Part shown: positions 323 to 57,795 of the stretch, one piece after another
How positions within the stretch are numbered: the first letter of the stretch is position 1
Layout: each line of letters opens with the position of its first letter
Virus record (IMG/VR): IMGVR_UViG_3300009702_001278
Location: 1-64,000 of that record
DNA from: a virus
Length of the DNA stretch: 64,000 bases
Direction: 5' to 3' (one strand)
Program-made: the position numbers and the translations under genes
The notes under the pieces: model-generated
What the model was told of the DNA's origin: nothing
Seen by the model: the letters and a program-made list of their open reading frames with translations, nothing else
The model's database searches: none

Positions 323-345
323 AAAAACCCGCCTATGAAGCGGGG
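323..345 (-). terminator. Rho-independent terminator
   Basis: Just after the stop codon of the 347-697 gene the minus strand reads CCCGC, a short loop, GCGGG and then TTTTT. The GC-rich stem followed at once by a U-run is the classical intrinsic terminator form. It separates that gene from the promoter at 293-321. Confidence 0.75.
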
Positions 346-346
346 C

Positions 347-697
347 CTAACTGGAGATATCGAGAATCGGTGACTTTGGGCAGAATTGTTTTCTGTACTG
401 CCCCAAAACAGTCATCTGCCCTGACTTGAGGTTTGTAGTCAACATAACAACATTGATTGGTTCAAAATGCGATCTCTTTTTGGTGCGGGGCTTTTCTTGG
501 TGGGCAAACCTTTTGGCATGAGCCACCGCTGCAATAAGGCAGTCTCGCAACTGCTCTGTCTCATCCATTGTAAGCCAATGCGCTACAGTTGCCTTGCCTA
601 CATCCTCCGGTTTTGGTATCTTGGTGGGATAAACACTACCAAAGCCTTCGGCATCACTCGTAATTTCGTATTTGACTTCATCACCTTTTTTGGGCAC
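347..697 (-). CDS. Hypothetical protein (116 aa)
   Basis: The start is a GTG at 697 preceded by a good TAGGAGG Shine-Dalgarno sequence. The 116-residue product is basic in its second half (KPRTKKRSH) and has no recognised domain. It lies between the tmRNA gene upstream and an intrinsic terminator downstream, so it may be read through from the tmRNA promoter or from an unseen one. The stop is TAG, and extension past it would run into the terminator, which supports UAG as a true stop here. Confidence 0.65.
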   Translation of the reverse strand: MPKKGDEVKYEITSDAEGFGSVYPTKIPKPEDVGKATVAHWLTMDETEQLRDCLIAAVAHAKRFAHQEKPRTKKRSHFEPINVVMLTTNLKSGQMTVLGQYRKQFCPKSPILDISS

Positions 698-777
698 CGC
701 TCGCCTCCTAAAAGACTATATCGGATTTACAGAGGCCAAAGTTCTCAACTTCTGCAAATCCGTCTCTTCTCGGGAAC

Positions 778-1157
778 TGGAGGTGGGGGGCATCGAAGCC
801 CCCGTCCCGAAGTTCGTTCAACAGCAGCGTCTACGTGAGTAGGATTTCTATCCGCGCATCTAAGATGCGAATTTTACGTCACTGACAGGCGGTAAAGGTA
901 AACCCAACCCGCATTCGCTACCCATCAACCAGACGGTCTTAATTGTCGGCAGCAAGGACGACAGTCTTACTGCTTATCCTGATGCTGCGTCAGTCTGCCT
1001 ATCAGGAAGTCAGCAGGTGACGGCCAGGCTCAAGCGGCCATGGCGAGTGGTGCATCGTTGGCACTTAGTTATTGCACCGATTTTTATACTGGCCGTTCGG
1101 TGAACCAGTCCACGCAACTACGGTCTACTTGCAACCCGGTCGATACCTGTCACCCCC
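778..1157 (-). ncRNA. ssrA: tmRNA (transfer-messenger RNA)
   Basis: The RNA starts GGGGGTG and ends CACCTCC plus discriminator A. These pair as a 7-bp acceptor stem containing the G3-U70 wobble that alanyl-tRNA synthetase recognises. A T-arm (GGGGG, a TTCGAT-containing loop, CCCCC) precedes the 3' strand, and the conserved CTTCGGGAC precedes the T-arm. Near the middle, the minus strand at 1030-1062 encodes the tag ANDAPLAMAA followed by TGA, very close to bacterial ANDENYALAA-type tags. The resume codon GCC follows CTAAGT. CCA is not encoded. The T-loop is one base longer than usual, or closes with an extra C-G pair. Its role would be to rescue stalled ribosomes and tag the products for proteolysis. 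Confidence 0.93.
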
Positions 1158-1167
1158 GTATACTACA

Positions 1168-1195
1168 TTATACCTTGGATTTCTGGAAAGTCAAG
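1168..1195 (-). promoter_or_regulatory. Promoter of the tmRNA gene
   Basis: The minus strand reads TTGACT, a 16-nt spacer and a perfect TATAAT. The end of the -10 box is 10-11 nt before the mature 5' end of the tmRNA, which fits transcription starting at or next to that end. The promoter overlaps the last codons of the HNH gene at 1191-2489. Confidence 0.7.
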
Positions 1196-2500: not shown

Positions 2501-3751
2501 CTACAAAACTTTCAGTTTATCTGTTTCAGGCCCATAACTGTACATGCTTACAGGACCACAATTTGCGTTAATCTTGCCCACAAACAGAGCCCGAAACTGA
2601 ATATCATCATTATACAGGCTGTAGCTCGGCATATCAATCAGATTCCCCTCATCATACATTTTGATGCCTTCAACGTCAGCCAGGGTGTCTGCATGCATCA
2701 AGGCAATCCCGGTTGCGCCGGTGATCTCCACCGCCTTGCGGGTCAGCCCCAAATCAAACCAACCTATGCGCCGTGGGCGACCAGTAGTGGTTCCATACTC
2801 GCCACCTTTTTCACGAATCTGATGAGACATACACCATTCGCAGTCACATCTCCAACTGAAAACTTCGCCATTTTTATCATGGCATCTTATTTCTTCTAAG
2901 TTTGGATTCCTACAACCAATAAAATGAGTGCTAGGACACAGTTCGCTTGGGAATGGCCCAGCACCAACTCGGGTGGCATAGCATTTGATTACTCCCACAA
3001 TGCGGTCCAGATGAAAGTTAGGCAGTCCGCAAGCCTGTGGTATCGCAGCAGGACCAATTCCCGAAGAAGTACAATAGGGATAAGTACCAAAATCAACATC
3101 AAGGAGGATACCATTAGCTCCTTCAAATAGGATGCTTTCTCTCGTATTCTTAACTTTTGACCTAAGTATTTCATCTGTTACCCGTATCATCGGTTGCAAA
3201 AACTCCGCAGCCTCGACATATTCTGCCCACAATCCCTTACCATGAAAGGCTTCATCCACCGCGAAAAATCTCTGCAATCGTTCATCTTGCAACTTCTCTT
3301 GCAGGTCACCCATTCGGATGGCATTCCACCGGTGTGCCTTGTCTGCGTAAGTTGGCCCGATACCTTTCTTCGTCGTACCTATTTTGCCACCCTTTTTTAT
3401 GTCCGAAGCAATATGCCAAGGCATCACACAATGAGATTTATCACTAATAAGTAAGCGACCCGTAATATCAATTCCAACATGCCGTAGGTCTTTAATTTCT
3501 TCGGCCAGCGAGACAGGGTTGAGCACCATGCCATGAGCCATTATCAGCATGGGCTCATTTTTAGATACTGCGCCAGAAGGGATTTGATGTAACTTGAACG
3601 TATTCCCATCCACAACAACTGTATGACCGGCGTTAGCACCGCCATTGTAACGTACAACGATATCGTGTTTTTCTGACAATAGATGAGTGATCTTGCCTTT
3701 TCCGCAATCCCCCCAGCCCAAACCCACTACTGCTGTATACATTGGTATCAT
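2501..3751 (-). CDS. purA: Adenylosuccinate synthetase family (PurA/PurZ-like)
   Basis: The 416-residue enzyme has the family signatures in order: WGDCGKGK (P-loop with the catalytic Asp kept), GGANAGHTVV, IPSGAV, KKGIGPTYADK, FEGANGILLD, GTYPYCTSS, TRVGAGPFPSE and GTTTGRPRRIGW. PurA condenses IMP with aspartate using GTP, and phage PurZ does the analogous reaction on dGMP. Several usually fixed residues differ: WGDE is WGDC, EGAQG is EGANG, and the TKLD guanine-recognition motif is replaced by MHAD. This suggests altered nucleotide use. The Asp that I recall being changed in phage PurZ is retained. Start ATG 3751 follows CGGAGAG. Confidence 0.88.
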   Translation of the reverse strand: MIPMYTAVVGLGWGDCGKGKITHLLSEKHDIVVRYNGGANAGHTVVVDGNTFKLHQIPSGAVSKNEPMLIMAHGMVLNPVSLAEEIKDLRHVGIDITGRLLISDKSHCVMPWHIASDIKKGGKIGTTKKGIGPTYADKAHRWNAIRMGDLQEKLQDERLQRFFAVDEAFHGKGLWAEYVEAAEFLQPMIRVTDEILRSKVKNTRESILFEGANGILLDVDFGTYPYCTSSGIGPAAIPQACGLPNFHLDRIVGVIKCYATRVGAGPFPSELCPSTHFIGCRNPNLEEIRCHDKNGEVFSWRCDCEWCMSHQIREKGGEYGTTTGRPRRIGWFDLGLTRKAVEITGATGIALMHADTLADVEGIKMYDEGNLIDMPSYSLYNDDIQFRALFVGKINANCGPVSMYSYGPETDKLKVL

Positions 3752-18619: not shown

Positions 18620-20425
18620 TTAAAGTTTAGCCTCCAACATACCAGAAAGCACTTCTGCAAATGATTCAATGTCTTCTCGGCTAGGCTGTGTTAATTTCAC
18701 TTCCGTCAGCTTATTCAAAGCAGCGGGCTCTAACAACTCTAGCACCAGATGGTCGTGAAAAGTACGATACGATCCGCCAGGCACATCATGTAATGCTATG
18801 CAATCTGGGGAGACTCCGACCGTTTCCTCACATTTGCGAGTATGTTCAAACCATTTATCTTCGTCAGCATCCGAAATAGGCTGCGAAGCAGTAACCTTAT
18901 TGCATTGCGCTCGTACTGGGAAATCCTCTCCCTCGCGATCTTTCAATGCCTTGATACGCTTATCCCAACTATCCTGCGGGATAACCCCATACATCCTACA
19001 TGAGAACGGTCGGTCATCATAGACGTGACATCTGCCTTCCCAAAAGATGCAACCCTTCTCAGGGCTGGTGTCAAGGTAGTTGATGATTGCCCTAACCAGC
19101 ATATCACGCTTGGCAGGCTTCTTCCAGGTCTTTTGAATCGTATCCAAAACCTTCAGAAACTCTACATAGTACATGCTGGGGTTGATTGTGCGACAATTAT
19201 GGACTTCTACAGCATGAGTAACAAAGGATTCTTCTCCCAATATCTCTATGTCATAAACATACCCATCAAATGGTTCTATGGTTAATGATTTAACACTCAG
19301 CAAATGACCATGCTTATGAGGCACGCATTTTGTGTGCTGGGAACAAGTTTTATATACGGAATATGCCTTTTTTCTGCTTGGTCTATCATGGCCAGAAACA
19401 GAATATGTCTCTCCAGACAACCAATACAACATCAACAACTGTTCTGACCAATATCGTGATGTTGTTGTACTTGACCTTCTGTTATTGCGAGATATATCTT
19501 GAACTCCATCCCCAGCATAATATCCGTTAATTAAAGACTTTCGCAGAGTGGCGTTATATACAAAAGCACTGAAGATATTCTCATTCACATGTTTATTTTC
19601 GCACCCCCGTCCGAAAAGGGATTCAAACAGTCTGCTTAAAACCACAGAACACATCCGAACAGTTATCGCATTTCCATGATCTGTTTTCTGATTTACGTTC
19701 AGACCTAGCTTATGAGCAAACTTCTTGATTTTATCAACTAAATGGGTTTCTTTGGCATGTAGGTGAAAATTCACTACTCCATACTGACACGAACCTTCGG
19801 CTATAAAAAGCCCAAAAATAAACGCATCACTTGGTTTTATGTCAAAACGATTAGGGATTGGTTTGCCGTTCTTATGCTTAGATGTAAAGCAAAATCCATT
19901 TTCCTCATGCAGCCCATGTACAAAAGATGATACATAAAAGTGACTAGGACTTTGAGTTAATTTAGGGGATTTCGGAAGAATGACATAGTGACCAAATTTA
20001 TTAGATTTCTTGGGAACTAAAGAACTTGATTCAACGAAATCTGGGGATGAAAGTTCTTGTCGGTCCCATCTGGTTATAGATGAGGCATACACTCTATGAT
20101 CGGGAGTTAATCTAATATCTCGCCCATGAGATAACTTTAACAGCAGAATCTCTTGTGCCTCTTTTTTGCCTACTCGCTTAATTTGCCTTAATCCTGATTT
20201 TGTAAAGACTGAATCACCCACAACCAGATCGGAAATTGGAATTGGTCCTCGCACAGTATACACTAATGTATCTGGAGCAAGACAGCACCAGATGGCATCT
20301 TCACCATAGTGCTCTTCACACTGTTCGCAACCTGTAGTTGTGGGCATACGGTCATACAAAACCTTCAATGATATCAAAGGTCTACGTATGTTTGATTCCG
20401 ATGTATCTACACCAAAGGGATTCAT
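18620..20425 (-). CDS. YkgJ-family zinc/iron-chelating protein carrying an intein
   Basis: Removing the intein leaves about 238 residues with CEQCEEHYGEDAIWCC followed by GCIFWEGRCHVYDDRPFSCR. This is the cysteine pattern (CxxC...CC...GRCxxYxxRPxxCR) of the YkgJ/UPF0153 family, thought to bind zinc or iron-sulfur. The intein splits the adjacent CC pair, so the metal site forms only after splicing. ATG 20425 overlaps the stop of the Gp157-like gene. The function of the family is poorly known. Confidence 0.78.
   Translation of the reverse strand: MNPFGVDTSESNIRRPLISLKVLYDRMPTTTGCEQCEEHYGEDAIWCCLAPDTLVYTVRGPIPISDLVVGDSVFTKSGLRQIKRVGKKEAQEILLLKLSHGRDIRLTPDHRVYASSITRWDRQELSSPDFVESSSLVPKKSNKFGHYVILPKSPKLTQSPSHFYVSSFVHGLHEENGFCFTSKHKNGKPIPNRFDIKPSDAFIFGLFIAEGSCQYGVVNFHLHAKETHLVDKIKKFAHKLGLNVNQKTDHGNAITVRMCSVVLSRLFESLFGRGCENKHVNENIFSAFVYNATLRKSLINGYYAGDGVQDISRNNRRSSTTTSRYWSEQLLMLYWLSGETYSVSGHDRPSRKKAYSVYKTCSQHTKCVPHKHGHLLSVKSLTIEPFDGYVYDIEILGEESFVTHAVEVHNCRTINPSMYYVEFLKVLDTIQKTWKKPAKRDMLVRAIINYLDTSPEKGCIFWEGRCHVYDDRPFSCRMYGVIPQDSWDKRIKALKDREGEDFPVRAQCNKVTASQPISDADEDKWFEHTRKCEETVGVSPDCIALHDVPGGSYRTFHDHLVLELLEPAALNKLTEVKLTQPSREDIESFAEVLSGMLEAKL
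19196..20284 (-). mobile_element. Intein with LAGLIDADG endonuclease in the YkgJ-like protein
   Basis: The 363-residue intein begins CLAPDTLVYT (block A), has RDIRLTPDHRVYA (block B, TxxH), LAGLIDADG helices AFIFGLFIAEGSC and SLINGYYAGDGVQ, block F YVYDIEILGEESFVTHA and block G VEVHN followed by Cys. All residues for standard splicing are present (C1, TxxH, HN, C+1), so it should be active. It is inserted between two metal-ligand cysteines. Confidence 0.92.
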
Positions 20426-27964: not shown

Positions 27965-30900
27965 TTACCTAGCGAACAAATCACCCTTTTGACGCCCAAG
28001 TCCTCTCTTCCGGTCGTTTTTAATGGTGTCAAAGTCTCGGAGTAATTGAGATTTTGGCTTATCCTTACCAAATAGATTCGCATCACATAAGGCTTCAACC
28101 ACTTTGCTGTTGACAGCAGAGCCAACTTTGTTTGCGAATGCAAACATCAAGTCGTTGCCTTTATATGGTTGGTTTTCGATAATCTCGTGAGCAGCCTTAT
28201 CACCAACGTCCCTAATAATGAGTGGGCGCAGCAATTCTCGCTCTCCGATCTTAACGTAATGCATCTTAGATAGATTCAAACTGGGAGGGGCAATCTTATA
28301 GTTATGCTTCCGTAAGTCATCCTCATACTTACTAACCAAATCAAAGTCTCTGCGCTGTGCCTCAACCGACAACCTCGAAGCCATAAACTCAAGCATATAG
28401 TGAGCCTTGAGGTAAGCCGTCTTCCAGCACTCGTAAGCATAACTGGTGGCATGAGAATTTCGATTGACAATACCAGAAGATAGGCAATATAAGTGGGCTT
28501 CACTATCAACTTCAAGGTCATAACATTGATTCAGTCCAGCATACTTGATACTTGTGACCCGTACTTTTTGCCAATTAGCTTGACTACTCCTCTTTCCGGG
28601 CATAACATCACCATGTTTAACAGTCGTTGAAACTCCTGGTGTTTGAATCTTTTGTGATGAGATAACCACACATCGTAAGACATTCGAACAACTAGATACC
28701 CCCATTGACAAAGCTGATCGTTTACCTCTATGTCTTTTTGTTGATTTTGTAACAACTTCGTGTTGTTTATGTGATTTATAAAATGGTATTGCCCATCGTA
28801 TTCCACAACTACCTTGCGATCCCTGTCTATAAAATCCACTTGTCTTCTTTGTGAAATGGAAGTAAATTTCTTGCTTTTGATGATTTGTGAATGCTTGAAA
28901 CCAAGAGGGCATAAAACATCCTTTAGATACAACTCGGGGGCTGAGTGCCATTGATTTTGCCTCATTGCGGGCAAAACGCATTTGATTATAAAATCCTCTG
29001 GATTTTCTACCCGCCATTTCCTGAGTTGTTCTGTCCTCGCCTTCAATATTTCTGGTCGAGCAGATGTTTCGATAGCGGTTTCCACCCTGTTTTTCTGGAA
29101 CAGAGATTTGTGAGTCACGTTGAGTTTCTTCATCAAACAGGAACGCCGATGAATTTCTTCTTCGTTGGATAAGATCGCCGCAGATACCGAGGATGACACT
29201 GTTTTCTTGTATTCCGCGAGCCTTTCTGGGTCTTTTTTGATTTCCTCCCAGAATTTTCTTGATATTTTTCCGTTCGATTCCGAATAATGATGAGACTTTA
29301 TTACCTCCCATTGTTGACACTGCTTCTTGTGAGAATAAAGCTCTCGCTTCGTGAATTTTTGCTCGCAACCTGGACAAACAAAAGTCTTTTTGCTCAGTTT
29401 GTATTCTTCGCATTTTCTCTTGTGTTCTATAAACACTCTTCGGTTCGGCAACACCTCCTGACATCCCAGGCAAATCCAATCTTTCCTTTTTGGCATTTTT
29501 TATCTCCCAATTTTGCATAACAAACAAATTGCGTTCTACAATTTCACGAAGAGATCGTATGCCTTGATTAGTCATAAACTTATGATCTAAAGTACATACA
29601 TGTTTACTACCGTCACTAAATTCGACTTCCCACGTTGGTATCACACCATGATCATATACATCTACAATCTCAATTGGATCACCTTCAGGTGAATAAACAT
29701 CAGGCAAAGATTCTCCGCTTCTCTTTCTATTATACAATTCTTGGATAGAAATGTCATTTTCCGAGGTTATGATTTTTTCCGAAAAGGACAGTGACTTGTT
29801 GAAAGCATAACCACCAAACTTCTCCATATCATCCCAAATCTTCTTGGCAACCCCGGAGGGAACGCCCGTCTCGATGGCGGCTCGTAGGAACTGATCCTTG
29901 AAGTTGTTGATGATCTTGATTTTCTTCTTAGCACAACCTTTCATAAACATGTAACCATCAGAAGCGGTCAAGTCTGCCAGTGCCATGAATGCCTGCATGA
30001 CCTGTTCTTGATAGGCCATAATACCATAGGTTCTCTGGGTGATCTTCCGCAGCAACGGGTGGGGGAATTCAACCTTATGTTTTCCTGTCTTCCTATCGGA
30101 CAACTCAGGGATATAATCCTTGGGGCCTGGCCTGTACATCGCAATAGCAACAATCAAGTCATCAAATGAATCAATGCCGATTTGCTGGAAGGTCTGCTTC
30201 ATTCCTGTTTTTTCAGCTTGGAAACACCCGTCAGTATCACCCTTAGCTAACAAGGTGAGCGTTGAATTATCTTTCAAAGGTAACCGAGACAGGTCAACAT
30301 CAACACCGTGGTTTTCCTTCACAAGTTTGACTGCCATCGCCAACGCAGTCTTCGTAGACAGACCTAGCACATCAAACTTAATAAGACCAAGCGACTCGAC
30401 ATCTTCCTTCGAGAATTGCGTTGCTACTGTCTTCTTGGACCAGTCATCATCTGTTGCACCATGTGTAATATGGAGTGGGCAAATTTGCTCAAGCGGAATT
30501 GGAGAAATAATCACTCCTGCTGCATGGCAATTATGGACAAGAATATCCTGAGCGATGAAGTTGGGCTCGTTTTGATAGAAGTCATCACGATCTTTGAATG
30601 TAATGTCCCAAACTTCCTGTTCTTCTAGAGGTTCTATACTTTCAATGGTATGACATTTTATTACTGAGTAGACCTTATATTTTTGAGGATTTTTTCTGAT
30701 TTCCTCAAATTCTACACAACCTTGATCTGTAAATATCAGGTGCTCATCCGTAACCTTGATCCAAGTCCCCTTAGATAACCGCATTTTGTAGCACTTTTTA
30801 ATACCCGTGCAATGAGGATGGAAATCTGACGTATACAGTTCTTTTCCTACTTTATCTATGTATGCAACTTTGCAAGTATTATCAAGCTGATCTATCCGCA

Positions 30901-31636
30901 CCCAGCCTATATCTGTTTTGATAAGAGTATCTTTAGCCAGACACCCATATGCAGAGATAGAGCCTTCTAGCCGTCTTGCGACCCGATATACTTCCGGGTA
31001 CTGCTTCATATACCGGGCAAAATCTGAGAAGGTTTCACAAGCATCGTCAACGCAGTTAATTAGAGAGCCATCCTTCTTCTTAAATGCTGACTGCGACTTA
31101 GGTAATGTGTTGAGAATCTCATTCTGTAGTGCATAGTTTCTGCTTTTGTCTGGCTTGGAGCCGGAGTAGTCTATGGAGTTCTCTGGGTCAAGAATTTCTA
31201 CAGCCTTGCGAACTGCTGCTTTTGTCTTCAGAGTTAGCGTTGTACCAACGTTGCCAACTCTGTCTTCACCGTACTTCTGCTGCAAGTACTCAATAATTTC
31301 ATGGCGTCGAGCATAGTCGAAGTCCATGTCGATATCAGGGAAACCTGCCCGACCATAGGTACGTCGCTTCTCAACCGCAAACTCACCATTGGGTCGGGCT
31401 GTAGTAATCCCTAAAAAGTATGCTACTAGAGAGTTGAGGATATTTTTTCTGCCCGCTTGGATATCACCCTCAGTCAACCTCTTGTATATCTCCAACAGAT
31501 TGTCTACAATGCCCAGGCGTTCCATCTGCTGGAGTTCATCAAACAACCTTTCTTTGTGTTTGTCAAAATCAGGCTTGTCAGTGATAAACGATATTACCTT
31601 TCTTCCTTTTTCACTTAGTTTCATCATCAACCTCAT
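27965..31636 (-). CDS. dnaE: DNA polymerase III alpha (DnaE-type), C-terminal half, with two inteins
   Basis: The extein parts total about 639 residues. They include FPDIDMDFDYARRHEII with the catalytic aspartates, CHAAGVIISPIPLEQ, GLIKFDVLGLSTKT (third catalytic Asp), MYRPGPKDYIPE, TYGIMAYQEQVMQ and FGGYAFNKSHATSYAY. It therefore carries palm, fingers and a C-terminal helix-hairpin-helix region but lacks the PHP domain, which is encoded at 34423-35807. Its N-terminus also contains a palm-like segment (SLVAYFLGIT) that duplicates one in the N-half. Inteins lie at residues 232-369 and 615-1060. The internal ATG at 31624 is a plausible start. Confidence 0.9.
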   Translation of the reverse strand: MRLMMKLSEKGRKVISFITDKPDFDKHKERLFDELQQMERLGIVDNLLEIYKRLTEGDIQAGRKNILNSLVAYFLGITTARPNGEFAVEKRRTYGRAGFPDIDMDFDYARRHEIIEYLQQKYGEDRVGNVGTTLTLKTKAAVRKAVEILDPENSIDYSGSKPDKSRNYALQNEILNTLPKSQSAFKKKDGSLINCVDDACETFSDFARYMKQYPEVYRVARRLEGSISAYGCLAKDTLIKTDIGWVRIDQLDNTCKVAYIDKVGKELYTSDFHPHCTGIKKCYKMRLSKGTWIKVTDEHLIFTDQGCVEFEEIRKNPQKYKVYSVIKCHTIESIEPLEEQEVWDITFKDRDDFYQNEPNFIAQDILVHNCHAAGVIISPIPLEQICPLHITHGATDDDWSKKTVATQFSKEDVESLGLIKFDVLGLSTKTALAMAVKLVKENHGVDVDLSRLPLKDNSTLTLLAKGDTDGCFQAEKTGMKQTFQQIGIDSFDDLIVAIAMYRPGPKDYIPELSDRKTGKHKVEFPHPLLRKITQRTYGIMAYQEQVMQAFMALADLTASDGYMFMKGCAKKKIKIINNFKDQFLRAAIETGVPSGVAKKIWDDMEKFGGYAFNKSLSFSEKIITSENDISIQELYNRKRSGESLPDVYSPEGDPIEIVDVYDHGVIPTWEVEFSDGSKHVCTLDHKFMTNQGIRSLREIVERNLFVMQNWEIKNAKKERLDLPGMSGGVAEPKSVYRTQEKMRRIQTEQKDFCLSRLRAKIHEARALFSQEAVSTMGGNKVSSLFGIERKNIKKILGGNQKRPRKARGIQENSVILGICGDLIQRRRNSSAFLFDEETQRDSQISVPEKQGGNRYRNICSTRNIEGEDRTTQEMAGRKSRGFYNQMRFARNEAKSMALSPRVVSKGCFMPSWFQAFTNHQKQEIYFHFTKKTSGFYRQGSQGSCGIRWAIPFYKSHKQHEVVTKSTKRHRGKRSALSMGVSSCSNVLRCVVISSQKIQTPGVSTTVKHGDVMPGKRSSQANWQKVRVTSIKYAGLNQCYDLEVDSEAHLYCLSSGIVNRNSHATSYAYECWKTAYLKAHYMLEFMASRLSVEAQRRDFDLVSKYEDDLRKHNYKIAPPSLNLSKMHYVKIGERELLRPLIIRDVGDKAAHEIIENQPYKGNDLMFAFANKVGSAVNSKVVEALCDANLFGKDKPKSQLLRDFDTIKNDRKRGLGRQKGDLFAR
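28457..29794 (-). mobile_element. Intein 2 of the DnaE C-half, with an out-of-frame endonuclease gene inside
   Basis: The 446-residue intein starts at Ser615 (SLSFSEKIITS), has block B HVCTLDHKFMTN and ends with CYDLEVDSEAHLYCLSSG then IVNRN, followed by Ser of the extein FNK-SHATSYAY. The penultimate residue is Arg instead of the usual His. Roughly residues 708-1022 do not look like an intein domain. They are a basic, unstructured-looking translation of a separate gene read in another frame (28531-29496). The intein frame nevertheless contains no stop. Confidence 0.85.
28531..29496 (-). CDS. Homing endonuclease nested in a different frame inside DnaE intein 2
   Basis: ATG 29496 follows GGGAG at normal spacing and opens 321 codons in the +1 frame relative to the intein. 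The product begins with two C2H2-like zinc fingers (CLGCQEVLPNRRVFIEHKRKC and CPGCEQKFTKRELYSHKKQC, each truncated here to its ligands). It has a helical basic middle and a C-terminal nuclease core: RRQVDFIDRDRKVVVEYDG, QYHF, then GYLVVRMSYDVWLSH. The D...VEYDGQYHF pattern fits Vsr-like/EDxHD endonucleases. Its 3' end overlaps the start of intein block F, so about 40 nt are coding in both frames for conserved sequence. Confidence 0.85.
   Translation of the reverse strand: MPKRKDWICLGCQEVLPNRRVFIEHKRKCEEYKLSKKTFVCPGCEQKFTKRELYSHKKQCQQWEVIKSHHYSESNGKISRKFWEEIKKDPERLAEYKKTVSSSVSAAILSNEEEIHRRSCLMKKLNVTHKSLFQKNRVETAIETSARPEILKARTEQLRKWRVENPEDFIIKCVLPAMRQNQWHSAPELYLKDVLCPLGFKHSQIIKSKKFTSISQRRQVDFIDRDRKVVVEYDGQYHFINHINNTKLLQNQQKDIEVNDQLCQWGYLVVRMSYDVWLSHHKRFKHQEFQRLLNMVMLCPERGVVKLIGKKYGSQVSSMLD
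30530..30943 (-). mobile_element. Mini-intein 1 of the DnaE C-half
   Basis: The 138-residue intein begins CLAKDTLIKTDIG (block A), has IKVTDEHLIFTDQG (block B), VWDITFKDRDDFY and FIAQDILVHN (blocks F/G), and is followed by Cys of the extein CHAAGVII. It has no endonuclease domain. All splicing residues are present. It is inserted at the highly conserved HAAGV motif of the polymerase. Confidence 0.9.
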
Positions 31637-47697: not shown

Positions 47698-48564
47698 TTA
47701 CGATCCTTCCATACATAGCTTTATCTCTACGTTGGATGGATCAAGCATAATCTGCAACGCTCCTGCACCAAGCATCTGTTTGACTCTATCAGAGTTAATA
47801 CCCCCTACTCGGGGCTTACCATGACAGCCAGACAAAAACTCGGGGTTGCACGTTACAATAGTGGGAAGGCTGCTGCGCCTATAGAATAATTGGTCAAGAT
47901 CGACCACTTTATTGTTGGATACATCGAAATTGTCGATAACGAGGAAATTTACTTCCGCCCATTCATCTAACTGTTCAAAGTCAATGTATTTACCAAAGCT
48001 ATAAGCGGCGTCTACCAACACAGAGCCTTCTACCCATCCGAACGTATAGTCCTTACCACTGTCTATTGAGGCTCGAACAACTTCTTTCAAAATCAACGCC
48101 GCAAGCAAAGATTTACCACTTCGATTACCACCCGCAATAACGACATTTCCGCCACACACTGACTTCTCATGAATCAGCGAATGCTTTTGTCGTTCTTCAC
48201 GAGTTGATACCAAATTGATATCATCGGTATCAAAGCAGTAACACATCGCTTGCGAACGAGCCCGTTGAGCGACCATAGCAGCAGTATTCTCATTCATCCC
48301 TTCAATACAACCAATTACCTCGGTTCTGCCGTTTGGATATCGAGTCCGCAATGAGCCATTAAAATCGCTCCAGTTGTAGTACTTGAGTCCTGATGGTTTC
48401 AGCTTGATCTGCTCAAAACGCCACTTGACCGCAGCTAAATGTTGGCATCCACAAGCTGTCCAACCATTATCCCTAAGCACACACTTAACACCCTTACAAC
48501 GAGGGCATTGTGATGCGTAATGTTCCTTGTATTCTGAGTACGATATTAGAGATTGTCGATTCAT
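47698..48564 (-). CDS. DnaC-like AAA+ helicase loader with zinc finger
   Basis: The N-terminal CPRCKGVKCVLRDNGWTACG is a zinc ribbon. The AAA+ core has VVIAGGNRSGKSLLAALIL (Walker A), NFLVIDNFDVSN (Walker B) and PTIVTCNPEFL (sensor 1). This size and order fits phage DnaC/DnaI-type loaders, and it sits directly upstream of the DnaB-type helicase gene, the usual pairing. Confidence 0.75.
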   Translation of the reverse strand: MNRQSLISYSEYKEHYASQCPRCKGVKCVLRDNGWTACGCQHLAAVKWRFEQIKLKPSGLKYYNWSDFNGSLRTRYPNGRTEVIGCIEGMNENTAAMVAQRARSQAMCYCFDTDDINLVSTREERQKHSLIHEKSVCGGNVVIAGGNRSGKSLLAALILKEVVRASIDSGKDYTFGWVEGSVLVDAAYSFGKYIDFEQLDEWAEVNFLVIDNFDVSNNKVVDLDQLFYRRSSLPTIVTCNPEFLSGCHGKPRVGGINSDRVKQMLGAGALQIMLDPSNVEIKLCMEGS

Positions 48565-49736
48565 TCAGTTAAGTCATCTTCAGTCAGATCGTTTAGGTCG
48601 CCCGCCAAATCAAAAGTTCGGTCGGGAGTCGAGACTGCATACGATTTGCCTGAACCAGAAGAGTTGGCCAGACGAGCACGACCGCCCGATCCATCCTTAC
48701 CCTTGGCCCATTCACGCATGACGGTGACTTCCTCTCGCCTGCTATTATACAACGGTTGGAATTTGCCTATCTCACTGACAATATCATCGGTCGTTACCTT
48801 GCGCTTCTTATCTTGGAATGCCAAGAATAGCGCATTATTTATTCCCTTTTCCATTTCAGCAGGGCTGTAGTTATCAGCCGCATCTGCGATTCTCGACAGA
48901 TTGAAGTCGGCTGGGTCTCGATCTTTCCGCTTTAACAAAACTTCTGCAACCTCAACCCGTTGATCCCGGTCGGGTAGATCAAGGAAGAAGATTTCATCGA
49001 AGCGCCCTGCACGCTGAAACTCAGGTGGGATACCATCAAGATTGTTAGCAGTTGCAATAACGAAGACAGGCTCTTCCTTTTCCTGCATCCACGTCAACAG
49101 CGTACCAAAGACTCGGTTGGTAACTCCACCATCAGTGACATTACTACTTGCTACCCCACCAATACCCTTTTCGATTTCATCCACCCAAAGGACACAGGGT
49201 GCAATAGCTTCCGCAGTCTGGATGGCAAGTCGAGTATTCTCCTCAGACTCACCAATATGAGCCGAGAATAAGGCCCCAATGTCCAGCCGCAGAAGTGGCA
49301 TCTCAAAATGGACACCAACTGCATCCGAGATCATCGATTTTCCTGTGTTGTGGGACACGATATCATTGGAATAATATCTATGACTTAAACTCTTCACCTC
49401 TAAATCAAAGGTGTCTTTTACTCCTATAGATTCTTTAGCGACAACTGCTTGCCACCCGGACATTGTGCGTACTAAATCCTCCTGCACATTGATGTCTTCC
49501 GACTTCTTCCATGAATGACACTCAACACTATCACTCGTCCATATGTAATGATCAGCAGAACATCCGAGTTCTTGACCATTTTCCAGCACCAAATTATAAC
49601 AATCTTTATTCCGCTTCTGTACCAGTGATCCTATGTCTTGCCATCCATCGGGAGTATGAATTTGATAAGTACCTCCATCCTTACACAAAGCAAAAAACTC
49701 TTCTATCGTAATTTCCTGTTCTTCATCTTTTTGCAT
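48561..49736 (-). CDS. Ycf46-like AAA ATPase C-part, preceded by a split-intein C-fragment
   Basis: Residues 1-130 are the C-terminal fragment of a split intein: block B ELGCSADHYIWT, block F DTFDLEVKSLSHRYYSNDI and block G VSHN followed by Thr. Residue 131 on completes the Walker A motif (TGKSMISDAVG) and continues LFSAHIGESEENTRLAIQ, PCVLWVDEIEKGIGG (Walker B), ATANNLDGIPPEFQRAGRFD (sensor 1, arginine finger). It must be joined in trans to the 50647-51645 product. Start ATG 49736 has AGAGGA upstream and overlaps the endonuclease end. Confidence 0.88.
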   Translation of the reverse strand: MQKDEEQEITIEEFFALCKDGGTYQIHTPDGWQDIGSLVQKRNKDCYNLVLENGQELGCSADHYIWTSDSVECHSWKKSEDINVQEDLVRTMSGWQAVVAKESIGVKDTFDLEVKSLSHRYYSNDIVSHNTGKSMISDAVGVHFEMPLLRLDIGALFSAHIGESEENTRLAIQTAEAIAPCVLWVDEIEKGIGGVASSNVTDGGVTNRVFGTLLTWMQEKEEPVFVIATANNLDGIPPEFQRAGRFDEIFFLDLPDRDQRVEVAEVLLKRKDRDPADFNLSRIADAADNYSPAEMEKGINNALFLAFQDKKRKVTTDDIVSEIGKFQPLYNSRREEVTVMREWAKGKDGSGGRARLANSSGSGKSYAVSTPDRTFDLAGDLNDLTEDDLTE

Positions 49737-50611
49737 AGAATTTCAATCCTCTTTCGATACTTTCGGTTAAACTCGACTGCACCTTTTTCAAACAAAGACA
49801 CAATCCGATCCGTTTCTAATAATTTCACGTCAACCATCTCAAACTCAAGACCGTTGTTTTTACAAAATTCAATCGCGGCCTTTCTCTTAAGTATATTCGA
49901 TGGAGTTTCCATTAACTGCTTTGGTTTAACTTCTACCAGCACTTTGTTGTCTACTAGAAAATCCGGTCTATATGTTCTTGAAGTGCCATCGTAATTGGTA
50001 TACGGTATAAAGAACTCCTTAGTTTCAGCACTTCGCCATTCATGATCATTTCCCTCAAGAACCCTAATCATATATGACAGCTCTCGAAGACTTCGGAAAT
50101 ACCATCCTTTATACCATCCTCCCCAGCCGCCACCAGACCCCTTTGGAGCAGGCTTCCCGTACATAGGGTTGTTCTCACCAGAAGAATTCTCCGATTGAAC
50201 CTTAAGCCACTTCGCAAACTTTTTTGCAGCTACTTCCCCTCCAAGTTGATCTTTCCAAATGTCATAGAAGCTCCTGCCAAACATCCCATTCTGAGTACCC
50301 ATCCTTGCAGAGGTTTTTTTGAATTCTTCCGTCTGAGTGTAGCTGCGATCAACCTCTTCACTCAAATACTTCTTAGTTTCTTCCGAATGTTTTTTCCCAT
50401 AAAACGAGTTCTTTTCTCCAACCCGTTTTTTGGCTCTCTCCGATCTTTCCTTCTTTATTTCTAATCGCGATCCTACTTCCTTCGATCTGCAAGAACGACA
50501 TAGTTTCTTGTCTTTATCTGCGCGATTCCTATTCTTAATATTCGCATAAGTTAACTCTATCTTACATTCAGGGCAATTCCTTAAAAAAGGAGGTAAAGAT
50601 TTCTTTCGCAT
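49703..50611 (-). CDS. NUMOD3/PD-(D/E)XK homing endonuclease inside the fractured ATPase gene
   Basis: NUMOD3-like motifs (NSFYGKKHSEETKKYLSE, NNPMYGKPAPKG) are DNA-binding repeats of homing endonucleases. The C-terminus has TYRPDFLVDNKVLVEVKPKQ, a canonical PD...ExK nuclease core. An N-terminal zinc-binding pair (CPECKIELTY ... CRSCRSKE) adds a third element. It has its own SD (GAGGAG) and lies exactly between the two halves of the split-intein ATPase, the place expected for the element that fractured the gene. Confidence 0.88.
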   Translation of the reverse strand: MRKKSLPPFLRNCPECKIELTYANIKNRNRADKDKKLCRSCRSKEVGSRLEIKKERSERAKKRVGEKNSFYGKKHSEETKKYLSEEVDRSYTQTEEFKKTSARMGTQNGMFGRSFYDIWKDQLGGEVAAKKFAKWLKVQSENSSGENNPMYGKPAPKGSGGGWGGWYKGWYFRSLRELSYMIRVLEGNDHEWRSAETKEFFIPYTNYDGTSRTYRPDFLVDNKVLVEVKPKQLMETPSNILKRKAAIEFCKNNGLEFEMVDVKLLETDRIVSLFEKGAVEFNRKYRKRIEILCKKMKNRKLR

Positions 50612-50646
50612 AATAGTTTCTCCTCGTCGGATAGCCCGACACAGGA

Positions 50647-51645
50647 CTATTCTACGAAAATTTGATGTTCTCCTTCATCAGAAATCTTTTTTACTCTGAT
50701 TTTTGTATCACCCAAAACACAACCTGGAATGCCCACAAGCAGCACTCCCTTTGGGTTGTCCAGTCCGAAGTCTCTGGCATCGGATTTGAAACCAAGCCTA
50801 CGCATACCTAGCCATTCTTTCAGATTGTCAAGTCCACCGATCTGGTCAAACGAGAACCTACTATCCCTGTACTCCAAGATACCTCCCTTACGGATAATCT
50901 GTTTCTTTTCGTCTAGGATAGTTGATATATCGAACGTTTTCGTCTTGACCAACGATTTAGCATAGGCATTCTCTGCCTCGGTAATCGTCAATCCCGTCGT
51001 TGAATGTAGAATCTCTTCCCGGTTGTCTCTTGCAGACTTCAAGGCATTAGGAAAACGAGCTGGGATATGTTTGCACATCTTCGTGAAAGAAACTTCGACC
51101 TCTTCTCGGGACGGGGGCGGAAAGTCAATCAGGGTGAATTCCTTCTCTAATGCCACTGGGCAGACAAAGACAGGTGAAACAATCACAATATAACAGACCG
51201 ACGTGAAGCTAGCAAACTCTTTGAAGAGCCGCTCGATCACAGGAGCACCTTCCAAAAAGTGGTGGAAGTCGAGCAACATAAAAATCGAGCCTGCTGATGC
51301 CGATTCTTTCTCATTGGCAGACTTGGCTTGATCTATAATATAATGCAGTGCCGCCTCCGCATCGTTGTGAACTTCACTTTCTTTAGCTTGAATTTGCTGC
51401 AACGAGGAAGCATCTAACATCCCCCTGCTGAAATCCCAATGAAACAGATTAAAGCCTTCCGAATAGGCAATCAGTTTGAAGGCACTGATAACCCGACGCT
51501 CTTCTGGGCTGCGGATATAGAGTATCCGGTATCTACTCTTGATATGATAGAATAGTTCACGACCAATTTGGCCGTCACCTAGAGCAAGTAGCTGCTGGCG
51601 ATATTCCCGCCGCACCTTTGGCGTGAGGGTTATTTCCTGGCTCAT
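50647..51645 (-). CDS. Ycf46-like AAA ATPase N-part, ending in a short split-intein N-fragment
   Basis: The N-terminal 270 residues match the Ycf46 layout: RYRILYIRSPEERRVISAF, FHWDFSRGM, then IGGLDNLKEWLGMRRLGF. The ATPase core reaches GVLLVGIPG, the first part of Walker A, and is then cut by CVLGDTKIRVKKISDEGE ... FVE, a 24-residue intein N-fragment (50650-50721). Trans-splicing with 48561-49736 restores GVLLVGIPG-TGKS. A 24-residue N-fragment makes this an atypically split intein (break between blocks A and B). Confidence 0.88.
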   Translation of the reverse strand: MSQEITLTPKVRREYRQQLLALGDGQIGRELFYHIKSRYRILYIRSPEERRVISAFKLIAYSEGFNLFHWDFSRGMLDASSLQQIQAKESEVHNDAEAALHYIIDQAKSANEKESASAGSIFMLLDFHHFLEGAPVIERLFKEFASFTSVCYIVIVSPVFVCPVALEKEFTLIDFPPPSREEVEVSFTKMCKHIPARFPNALKSARDNREEILHSTTGLTITEAENAYAKSLVKTKTFDISTILDEKKQIIRKGGILEYRDSRFSFDQIGGLDNLKEWLGMRRLGFKSDARDFGLDNPKGVLLVGIPGCVLGDTKIRVKKISDEGEHQIFVE

Positions 51646-53494: not shown

Positions 53495-54922
53495 TCATTG
53501 GGCAATAACCAGGTATTCAGAACTCCTGTTAGTTCTGCCTTGATTCTTGCGGTAGAGATAACGGTATTCGTCAGTCAGTACTTCAACTTTAACATCATCT
53601 TTGAACTGCTTTACCAGATCAACGATGTAGTCGATATCCTTCCAAGAGGTATCATTATAGGAGAAGAGCCATATTGGTATGTGGGTAGCCGCATTAAGCA
53701 TCTTTAGGAAGTGCTCTTCGTATTCTCGTTTTCTTACAAAGGTTTTAGCGTTCTGGATATGAGGTAAGTCCTCTAGAGGTTGTCCGTAGATGAACTCCTC
53801 GAAAAATCTATAGATCGTAGCGTAGTCTGAGGACTGACCGCCGTAAGGTGGATCAAAATAAGCGCATTCTACCTTTAACCCGCTCTCTAAAAGGTCTACA
53901 ACATCCATATTTGTTGCTACGCAGTCGCCTGGCATATCTAGGTCAGCAAACGTCCACCATTTGAATCCTTGTCCTGGCTTTCCTTCTGTATCACTGGCTC
54001 CCAATTTGGTATGAAAGTCCATCTCTGTAGTGCCCTCATTGTCCCACGAGGCTTTGATCTGGTTTTTCTGGTGGGACATACGAACTTTCATCTCTGCCAG
54101 AGCTTGCCCTTTATTCATTCTGCCGCCTACAAAGCAGTCTCTCAGGACATGCTGTTGTAGATTAGCGAGAAAGGAGGCTCGTTTGATCTTTGGCTCAAGG
54201 GTTTCTACACGGCAACCCGCAGTAAAATCATCAACATACTTATGGAACCACTTATGAAACTTTAGACTGAGATCGTCGTCATAGTAAATTCCTATACGCC
54301 TATCGTGCCTCGCAGTACCCTTACCGTATGTTTCTTGTTGCTTACGCCTATGAGAGAGAATATCATGGCTAGCGTCTACATTACCAAAGGGCAGGCGCAT
54401 GATAATTGCTGCATTTACAGCTAGTCCGAGGCTTTGCAAGTGGTAGTTGCAGAGATCGTCTATATTTGCGCGAAAATTATCAAGTTGCCTACATTCTTTC
54501 AAGGTGAATTTCCTGAATCGTACATCAGATTCACCTTCACCAAGGTAGTTATCTTCCACAAATGTTGATCGACCAGAATTGTCGTGATTCAGAAGGAATT
54601 CCTTGTCTTTATCACTTAGCTTGATACCGGGGTTCTCTACAAAAGCAACGGCGTTGAGATAAGACGATGTAAGCACGTCATTTGCAATAACTTTCTTACC
54701 CATCAACTTGAATAGCATAGATACAGATGCGCTACCAGAGAAAGCGTCTAAAACCGAGGAGAATTTCAGACTATGCTTCTCGATAGCTCGATGGATATGG
54801 TAGAGCAACTTCTTTTTGTTCCCGGTGTAGGGCAGCGGCAGCTTCTCAATCCGTTTGATCGGAATAGAGAGATCAGTCTCATAGACATCGGGGGTGTTTG
54901 TGAACCGCCTCATTTTTCTCAT
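53495..54922 (-). CDS. Large D12-class adenine-N6 methyltransferase
   Basis: PLPYTGNKKKLLYHIHRAIE (Dam-like GxKxxL), SVLDAFSGSASVSMLFKLMG (motif I) and CAYFDPPYGGQSSDYATIY (motif IV DPPY) are in the alpha-class order. At 475 residues it is longer than Dam (about 280); a 200-residue central insertion probably holds the target-recognition domain. It is the fourth or fifth DNA methyltransferase in the window. ATG 54922 overlaps the helicase stop (ATGA). Confidence 0.85.
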   Translation of the reverse strand: MRKMRRFTNTPDVYETDLSIPIKRIEKLPLPYTGNKKKLLYHIHRAIEKHSLKFSSVLDAFSGSASVSMLFKLMGKKVIANDVLTSSYLNAVAFVENPGIKLSDKDKEFLLNHDNSGRSTFVEDNYLGEGESDVRFRKFTLKECRQLDNFRANIDDLCNYHLQSLGLAVNAAIIMRLPFGNVDASHDILSHRRKQQETYGKGTARHDRRIGIYYDDDLSLKFHKWFHKYVDDFTAGCRVETLEPKIKRASFLANLQQHVLRDCFVGGRMNKGQALAEMKVRMSHQKNQIKASWDNEGTTEMDFHTKLGASDTEGKPGQGFKWWTFADLDMPGDCVATNMDVVDLLESGLKVECAYFDPPYGGQSSDYATIYRFFEEFIYGQPLEDLPHIQNAKTFVRKREYEEHFLKMLNAATHIPIWLFSYNDTSWKDIDYIVDLVKQFKDDVKVEVLTDEYRYLYRKNQGRTNRSSEYLVIAQ

Positions 54923-57795
54923 GAGAATATCTTCTTAGGGTTAGGATCAATATGTTCTATATCAAATTCAGGTTCAGTAGAATACATCTGCGCTCTAGCT
55001 TTAGCATGATCTGCCAAGTATTTTTGGTGCAAATGGAAGTCGATAACCGTGGGGAATGGTTTATCCTTGTCGGGTCTGATGACTCGACCAATTCTCTGCA
55101 TTGCCCTTACTTTAGATTTGCCTTGCCCCGCAAGTATCAAAGTATCCAGAGGTTTTACATCAATACCCTCGTCAAAGATAACAGTACTTATGATGCACTT
55201 GATATCTTTGTTACGCAACTTATCGATAGCGTCGATACGTTTCTTTTTAGGACTATTGCCTGAGAGGAAATGTCCACCAGGAACCATCATTTCTAGGTAC
55301 TTGCCGTGTTTAACTTGAGTCACTAATATAAGCACCAACCTATCTTGTCCTATATAGGCATTTGCTATATTGGCAATTGCGTTGTTGTAGAACTCGTTCT
55401 CTACTACTTGATCTTTGTAAACTGACTGCCATTGCTGATAGAGTGATCTCTTGCCGCGCAAATGCACCATCTTAATATAGGGTTTCATTAAGAATGGTTT
55501 TCCAGTAGATGGATCGATGGTAGTAATCAACTCACTTGCAGTTATCTCGGCTACTTTCTTGCCGAAGCATCCCTGAATCATCATATCATCTCCTTCATCC
55601 CTGTATGGAGTAGCTGATGTCCCATATATAAAGAAGCAGTTAGGCAAACTTCTAGTCACCAGTTGGCAAGTGTCTGCTCGCCAATGTTGGACCTCATCAC
55701 AGATGGCACCTTTGGCATCGTGCAGTAGTGCTCGAATGTCTTCCCGATATTTCTGAACAGGAGTTTGGTCATCCTCATCGTCTGCGTCAAACTTGGTTTT
55801 GGCATCCCATTTCTTACCAAGGGCTCTTACAGCGGTTTGGATAGTCAGAACGGTAATGTCACCGAACTCTATCTTACCCCCACCAATCTGTCCGACAGTG
55901 AAAGGAGACCCGTTAAGTCTGAGGAACTTCTGCAACTCAGTCCTGGCTTGGTGAGCTAGGTCGATTGAGGTGACAAAGAATAGGAAGGGAGAGACCTGAA
56001 GACGTTTGATTAACCCCGCGCAAATTGCGGTATTGTGGTTTACGAATCCTTGGGCAGAGAACTACTGAGAGCAAGGAACTACAAAGTCATAGTTCCTGCT
56101 TATTTCAGATTTAGATGTCGCAACAGCATCATAGTGAAACTGGTCACTACAAGTGTTATTTAGTAGTTCGATTATATCACGAGACTCGTCACATTCGTAA
56201 TCTTGCGACCATGACAAAAATTTTCGTAATGATGACCTGGAAGGATTTCTGTCGGATTGAATCCATGAACGTATAGACCCGTATGACACTCCGCTCTGGG
56301 AGAATACTTTTGTAACGTTATGATATCCAACCTTACTTCGTATAATGTCTTTAAGATTTTTGATTAGGTGCGATTGATGCGGTATCACATCCAGGTTGCT
56401 ATTCGGTTGAATCGACATCTTTTTTGTAATTTGCCTAAGTTTTCGATGTTTATGCCCTAGTTCATCTAGTCCTATGTGTTGAACAAAGATTGGTATATAA
56501 TCTCTGTATATTGAAATTCGGTATGAGGGATGACAATTGGTTTGTTTAACGTGTCTGGTAGAAACTATTCCAAAGTTAAGAAGCATGACTTGGACTTGAA
56601 CGGATAATCGTTCTGATGATGTTGCTAAACAAACTGCATGGTCTTCTACCCACCCATCAGACTCAAATAATCCCCTCAGAAAAGACGCAACAACTTTTTT
56701 TGGAGACTGTCGAATTCGTAAAGGAACTTCCTTGTGTATTGAAAGTGAATATTCACACCCTATCTGATACAGTTCTTCCCGGTATTTCTTATTGTGAATA
56801 AATAGTTCTCGACATTTTTCAGATGTCTTGTGTTTCTTATCGTGTAATTTGAGACCTCGTTTTTTACAATAAGTTTTAGCAAAACGTATGATATGCTCAT
56901 CTTCGTTCGTGAGTCGAACAGTTGTCTTGCTGGTTAAACACCCATCACCAATGAGCAGCCCAATCCAATACCCGTCAGACGAATTCAAAGAGTCGTTTTC
57001 TCCAAAAAGCATTTGATTTTTATGTACTACACAAAAATCGCCCTTTTTAATCTCTTGTAGGCACCGCCATTGTTGTTGTCCTTCACTTGTTAATACTTTA
57101 ATTCTGTGAGATGGAGTACCACATATTTCAAATCCTGATTGAGTGGTAACTTTTATAGATTTAACCAACCCATCATAATAAATATGAGATGATATATCAG
57201 TGCCATTTTCCGAGTCTGGGGTAGAGATAACAGATTTATGTTTGTGATATTCTCCTACATCAAGATCGCACTTAGGTAATTCTTTGTTAAGAAGTTCTTC
57301 AAAAGTTAGGGTACCACTGTCGGTTATCACTAAGCTATCATAACGAATACATTTCCCGGCTCCGGTCGCTGCCTGAATGATACCTCTCTGTTGGGTGGCA
57401 GCATCTTCGCAGACTTTAGACTGGTAGTCTCGTTCTATGAAATCCTCTGACAAAGAGAAATCTGTATTTTGCTCAGGCTTTTCGCGCAGATCACGGGCGC
57501 GATAGGGAATGTTTTCTTCCTTCAGGTACGATGCAACAATTGAGTAAAGACCAGTTGGAAAGTAAGTACGCGTCTTATTCCTCCAGGCTTGGCGCTTCCA
57601 GCCATCCCAGATTCGCTTTACCTTCACCTTCTTGCCGGTTTCTTCATCCGTGCGATAAATCCACCGGTTGTACAGAGGGCTGAAGGTAAATCCTTGAGGT
57701 CTAAACGAAAGTAGTTTCTCGATTTCTTTCCACCGGGAAGTTTTTAGGTCGCCTATGATATCTACAAATACGTTACCTACCCTCAGTTCCAGCAT
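54919..57795 (-). CDS. UvsW-like SF2 helicase with an intein interrupted by an in-frame UAG
   Basis: The first 148 residues end at Walker A (ERDYQSKVCEDAATQQRG, IIQAATGAGK). A LAGLIDADG intein follows (56032-57351), and the helicase resumes TAICAGLIKRLQVSPFLFFV, then AICDEVQHW (DExH), FFIYGTSATPYRDEG, STVIFDEGIDVKPLDTLILA and RAMQRIGRVIRPDKDK (motif VI). Everything is in one frame except a UAG at 56062-56064 inside intein block F. T4 UvsW-type helicases act on recombination intermediates and origin RNA. Unless UAG is read through, no active helicase can form. Confidence 0.85.
56032..57351 (-). mobile_element. LAGLIDADG intein in the helicase Walker A, carrying an amber codon
   Basis: The intein starts CIRYDSLVITDSGTLTFEEL (block A), has GFEICGTPSHRIKVLTSEG (block B), LAGLIDADG helices DGYWIGLLIGDGCL and SFLRGLFESDGWV, and block F NYDFVVPCSQ-UAG-FSAQGFVNHN followed by Thr. 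All splice-site residues are present. The UAG replaces one residue of block F, about 10 codons before the end. It sits in the helicase P-loop (GAGK-T), a frequent intein site. Confidence 0.85.

Follow-up and report, generated by a model that had tools for sequence, protein, structure and literature searches.

A phage-encoded tmRNA gene with an unreported peptide tag and an unusual T-arm

Analysis of a 64,000-nucleotide stretch of viral DNA (hereafter the window, positions 1 to 64,000 of the 65,778-base IMG/VR virus record IMGVR_UViG_3300009702_001278) revealed a complete one-piece tmRNA gene (ssrA) which, based on comparison with a related contig, very probably specifies a functional phage tmRNA. 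Such RNAs free stuck ribosomes and tag unfinished proteins for destruction. As the original prediction had stated, phage tmRNAs are known but uncommon, having been found in 402 of 18,146 genomes (133 distinct; PMC9004378), with earlier cases including Bxz1 and Bacillus phage G (PMC4131195). What is new here is the tag, and what is unusual is the T-arm; through this gene, a phage group that is otherwise unplaced gains a tmRNA that is conserved, seems to be functional and has a tag not reported before.

The gene was called by ARAGORN on the minus strand (1157-778, tag ANDAPLAMAA*), and cmscan aligned 778-1157 on that strand to the whole of the Rfam model RF00023 (model positions 1-374) with 88.4 bits (E 5.5e-33), above the gathering score of 47. 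The original prediction had placed a complete phage-encoded tmRNA at these positions and had named a search with the Rfam tmRNA covariance model as the check on it; call and score both bear it out. The acceptor stem, as read from the sequence (GGGGGUG/CACCUCC), is of the alanine type and contains the predicted G-U wobble as G3.U, the identity pair of tRNA-Ala. CCA is absent from the gene (CCTCCA-GTT at its 3' boundary). Single-sequence folding of the whole RNA was set aside as evidence on its structure, because pseudoknots cannot form in such folding. The features of the gene are:

778..1157, minus strand: tmRNA gene (ssrA), one-piece, CCA not encoded (ARAGORN, RF00023)
1030..1062, minus strand: tag reading frame, from the GCC resume codon to TGA (ARAGORN, comparison with the related contig L016)
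778..807, minus strand: T-arm with six possible pairs, and 3' acceptor strand with the G3.U pair (RF00023 alignment, T-arm comparison)
1075..1109, minus strand: pseudoknot PK1, ACUGG/CCAGU and CACCGA/UCGGUG (five of the six second-stem pairs replaced on both sides in L016, and still paired)
855..869, minus strand: extra hairpin CGCAUC-UUA-GAUGCG, on the 5' side of helix 2's 3' strand (L016 has one compensatory change)

This is the sole tmRNA of the record. It belongs to a phage genome and is not host contamination, because the record is a virus record with phage replication genes (the window encodes PolIII alpha, DnaB, UvrD and UvsX homologues) and the same neighbours are found in a second viral contig. 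The gene has in common with bacterial one-piece tmRNAs (ssrA, RF00023) the full-length model match, the G3.U acceptor, a tag frame, pseudoknots and the T-loop core UUCGA, and differs from them in an extra complementary T-arm pair, in the extra hairpin that precedes helix 2's 3' strand and in its tag, of which no exact match was found in 84,980 species genomes. Complete ssrA genes are likewise carried by Bxz1 group mycobacteriophages, Bacillus phage G and Melnitz, presumably also with host SmpB, although the Melnitz tmRNA is two-piece. Those phages are often tRNA-rich (29-34 tRNAs in the C1 mycobacteriophages examined), whereas ARAGORN found no tRNA genes in the window; the record may be incomplete, and the phage could still have some.

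Evidence that the RNA is functional came from L016 (IMGVR_UViG_3300035698_026448), a viral contig of 57,404 bases that starts inside its tmRNA and was found by a scan for the window's T-arm form. At the DNA level the contigs match only in the tmRNA, with 81% identity over 352 bases, and the T-arm is the same in both. In the stems compared, 11 pairs are changed on both sides, all of them are still Watson-Crick and none is broken, a count of consistency and not a blind test, as the stems were hand-picked from both sequences. The double changes are spread over PK1, PK2 and PK3, the stems of which pair in both tmRNAs, and the extra hairpin (869-855). The L016 tag, ANSAPLAMAA, differs by a single amino acid (GAT to AGC, D to S); elsewhere in the frame two alanine codons differ synonymously, and the stop is TGA in the window and TAG in L016. 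Because the double changes keep the pairing and a single amino acid differs in the frame, the comparison, which is with one relative whose tmRNA lacks its 5' end, supports the view that RNA structure and encoded tag are each under selection and that the RNA is functional. DNA searches of the phage collection gave no match, a search with the 229-aa protein encoded downstream in L016 returned L016 alone, and among 26 stretches matched by a 16-base word from the PK2 region, only that in L016 was a tmRNA match.

The surroundings of the two genes are also alike. A small ORF downstream of the tmRNA is homologous in both contigs, and by eye the 229-aa ORF of L016 resembles the beginning of the window gene that comes next, which is present from base 120 down to the contig end. 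Unlike the window, L016 encodes CCA, and among the conserved neighbours it has an HNH ORF and a gene for a Dam-type methylase. The HNH endonuclease-like ORF (355-930, opposite strand) separates the tmRNA from the small conserved ORF and is possibly a mobile insertion; the methylase gene follows.

The conservation also bears on whether the RNA might be a decoy that binds host SmpB or EF-Tu and so dampens host trans-translation. Mycobacteriophage DS6A has a TLD-only RNA for which decoy action has been proposed; a molecule of similar kind inhibits tmRNA, possibly through titration of SmpB (PMC4131195). We consider this improbable here, since a decoy would need the tRNA-like part only, whereas compensatory and synonymous changes have preserved the mRNA-like half, the tag frame and the pseudoknots.

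The tag frame reads GCC AAC GAT GCA CCA CTC GCC ATG GCC GCT TGA, that is, ANDAPLAMAA, and the product would be AANDAPLAMAA once the charging alanine is counted, equal in length to the E. coli tag. The frame closes with a stop codon, and the C-terminus resembles a small hydrophobic degron. U and A are present at positions -5 and -4 relative to the resume codon, as they are in E. coli tmRNA. The predicted frame, with its TGA stop, was recovered by ARAGORN, and L016 keeps the frame. The tag had been described as an unfamiliar one, and it is indeed unreported: a search of 2.9 million viral contigs and of 84,980 species genomes for exact amino-acid matches to ANDAPLAMAA found none. The suggestion that the tag could be used to predict the host failed, because it occurs in no genome searched. 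Dozens of tmRNAs with varied tags were seen among the viral contigs fetched, several of the tags ending AMAA.

The T-arm, GGGGG-CUUCGAUG-CCCCC, departs from the five-pair T-stem and seven-base loop that are usual in tmRNAs but do not define them. It can be read as five pairs with an eight-base loop, or as six pairs (GGGGGC/GCCCCC) with a six-base loop (UUCGAU). In every tmRNA of the eight-base form examined, the two extra positions are complementary: C-G in the window, L016 and an actinobacterial MAG (L062); U-A in L014 and in G030, which shows the 3' end only, at a contig edge; and G-U in L004, L005/L011, L006 and L007, as well as in L013, where the tmRNA call is from ARAGORN alone. Rfam backs L004, L006, L007, L014 and L062 as one-piece tmRNAs and L005 as a permuted one. 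The G-U cases are weak evidence, because a U is canonical there too. Pairing was seen in 0 of 5 matches outside tmRNA genes (L003, L008, L010, L015 and L017), while a sixth such match, L012 in a tRNA array, has G-U. Because the extra bases pair in all tmRNAs of this form and in none of those five, the arm is better explained by a T-stem of six pairs closing a six-base loop than by an enlarged loop; the one-base-larger loop of the original prediction is thus real as sequence but is probably better read as an added pair.

T-stem length is known to vary, and a potential sixth pair in helix 12 was noted earlier for the tmRNA of Dehalococcoides ethenogenes (PMC1168896), a cellular and not a phage gene that is likened to ours by its published description, so the six-pair T-arm is rare but not new. 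A far-reaching proposal, which we think unlikely, would be that the sixth pair forms in the folded RNA, giving the acceptor/T stack 13 pairs instead of 12, as bacterial tRNA-Sec has, and that it arose repeatedly in phage tmRNAs as an adaptation altering whether EF-Tu, SmpB or processing enzymes select the phage or the host tmRNA. The rare form, which occurs in several phage tmRNAs and, within one actinobacterial order, in two genomes, could be used to test how tightly trans-translation factors measure this stack.

A promoter just upstream of the gene had also been predicted, and a sequence match to one was found, although it ends 9 and not ten bases from the RNA start. It is one of eight near-consensus sigma-70-like sites on the tmRNA coding (minus) strand that agree with the consensus in no fewer than 11 of its 12 bases. 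Since 0.65 such sites are expected by chance, the phage apparently makes wide use of host-type promoters. Correctly positioned and a member of this enriched class, the promoter match also speaks for a functional tmRNA. The elements around the gene are:

1167..1194, minus strand: sigma-70-type promoter TTGACT-16-TATAAT, the -10 element separated from the RNA 5' end by 9 bases
720..764, minus strand: stable hairpin of 12 pairs in the gap from the tmRNA to the following gene (z -3.3)
347..697, minus strand: 116-aa ORF downstream of the tmRNA, with a homologue beside the L016 tmRNA (35% over 65 aa)
328..344, minus strand: intrinsic terminator after the 116-aa ORF

The hairpin may be a processing or attenuation element. 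Because it is followed by the ORF and then the terminator, the tmRNA and the 116-aa ORF are probably on one transcript. Upstream of the tmRNA, phage family matches identified an HNH endonuclease and a PurA/PurZ-like synthetase; the latter (2501-3751, minus strand) matched PHROG 1211 with 282 bits and retains the WGD motif.

Thirty bases at the 3' end of the tmRNA (T-arm and acceptor) are identical in the actinobacterial MAG ssrA (L062 688-717), near which smpB was seen by eye. Within the genome collection, this MAG provides the one occurrence of the variant T-arm with the window's acceptor tail; the canonical T-arm with that tail has at least 120 matches in viral contigs. The shared 3' end, followed into the MAG's order, is at most a tentative pointer to a host, as only the T-arm and acceptor match and the variant is present in 2 of 58 genomes of the MAG's order (canonical form, 37 of 58). 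As ssrA genes act as prophage integration sites (PMC9004378), the shared end might mark a passive host copy, acquired by integration at the ssrA 3' end and functionless in the phage. This is very improbable: the remainder of the MAG tmRNA does not match, a promoter of its own precedes the phage gene, which L016 retains together with the neighbours, and no integrase was seen among the ORFs scanned, a part of all ORFs.

Overall, the likeliest role for the phage tmRNA is general supplementation of host trans-translation during infection. Transcription, early or constitutive, would start at the gene's own promoter; host enzymes would trim the RNA, the host would provide it with CCA, and AlaRS would charge it through the G3.U pair. 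Host SmpB and EF-Tu would load the charged RNA into ribosomes stalled on truncated mRNA, and AANDAPLAMAA, a degron-like tag ending AMAA, would be added to the stalled product. Host trans-translation may in this way be supplemented while mRNA is cut or degraded during infection, to the presumed benefit of the phage. Counting against a functional RNA, no SmpB gene was found in the record, which may be incomplete, so function would depend on host SmpB, and CCA is not encoded though L016 encodes it.

The original prediction's suggestion that the tmRNA rescues ribosomes stalled by recoding or by the phage's interrupted genes is barely credible, even with several inteins, homing endonuclease genes and one in-frame TAG present, because a ribosome does not stall on an intein that is read in a single frame, release factors deal with stop codons, and the stop codons are used in ordinary proportions (TAA 25, TGA 18, TAG 13). 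The interruptions seen are mainly inteins (in PolIII alpha, in a helicase and at 18620-20425) and homing endonuclease genes. In the DNA polymerase III alpha subunit (27965-31636, minus strand) the intein is in frame and covers residues 630-1057 (Pfam Intein_splicing). That of the helicase gene (54919-57795, minus strand) holds the single in-frame TAG seen (56064-56062), which precedes the predicted HN/T splice junction by ten codons and may reflect readthrough, a broken copy or an assembly error. An AAA+ ATPase (47698-51645, minus strand), with an intein C-part and C-extein in 48561-49736 and an endonuclease-like ORF (49703-50611) upstream, is possibly a fractured gene with a split intein.
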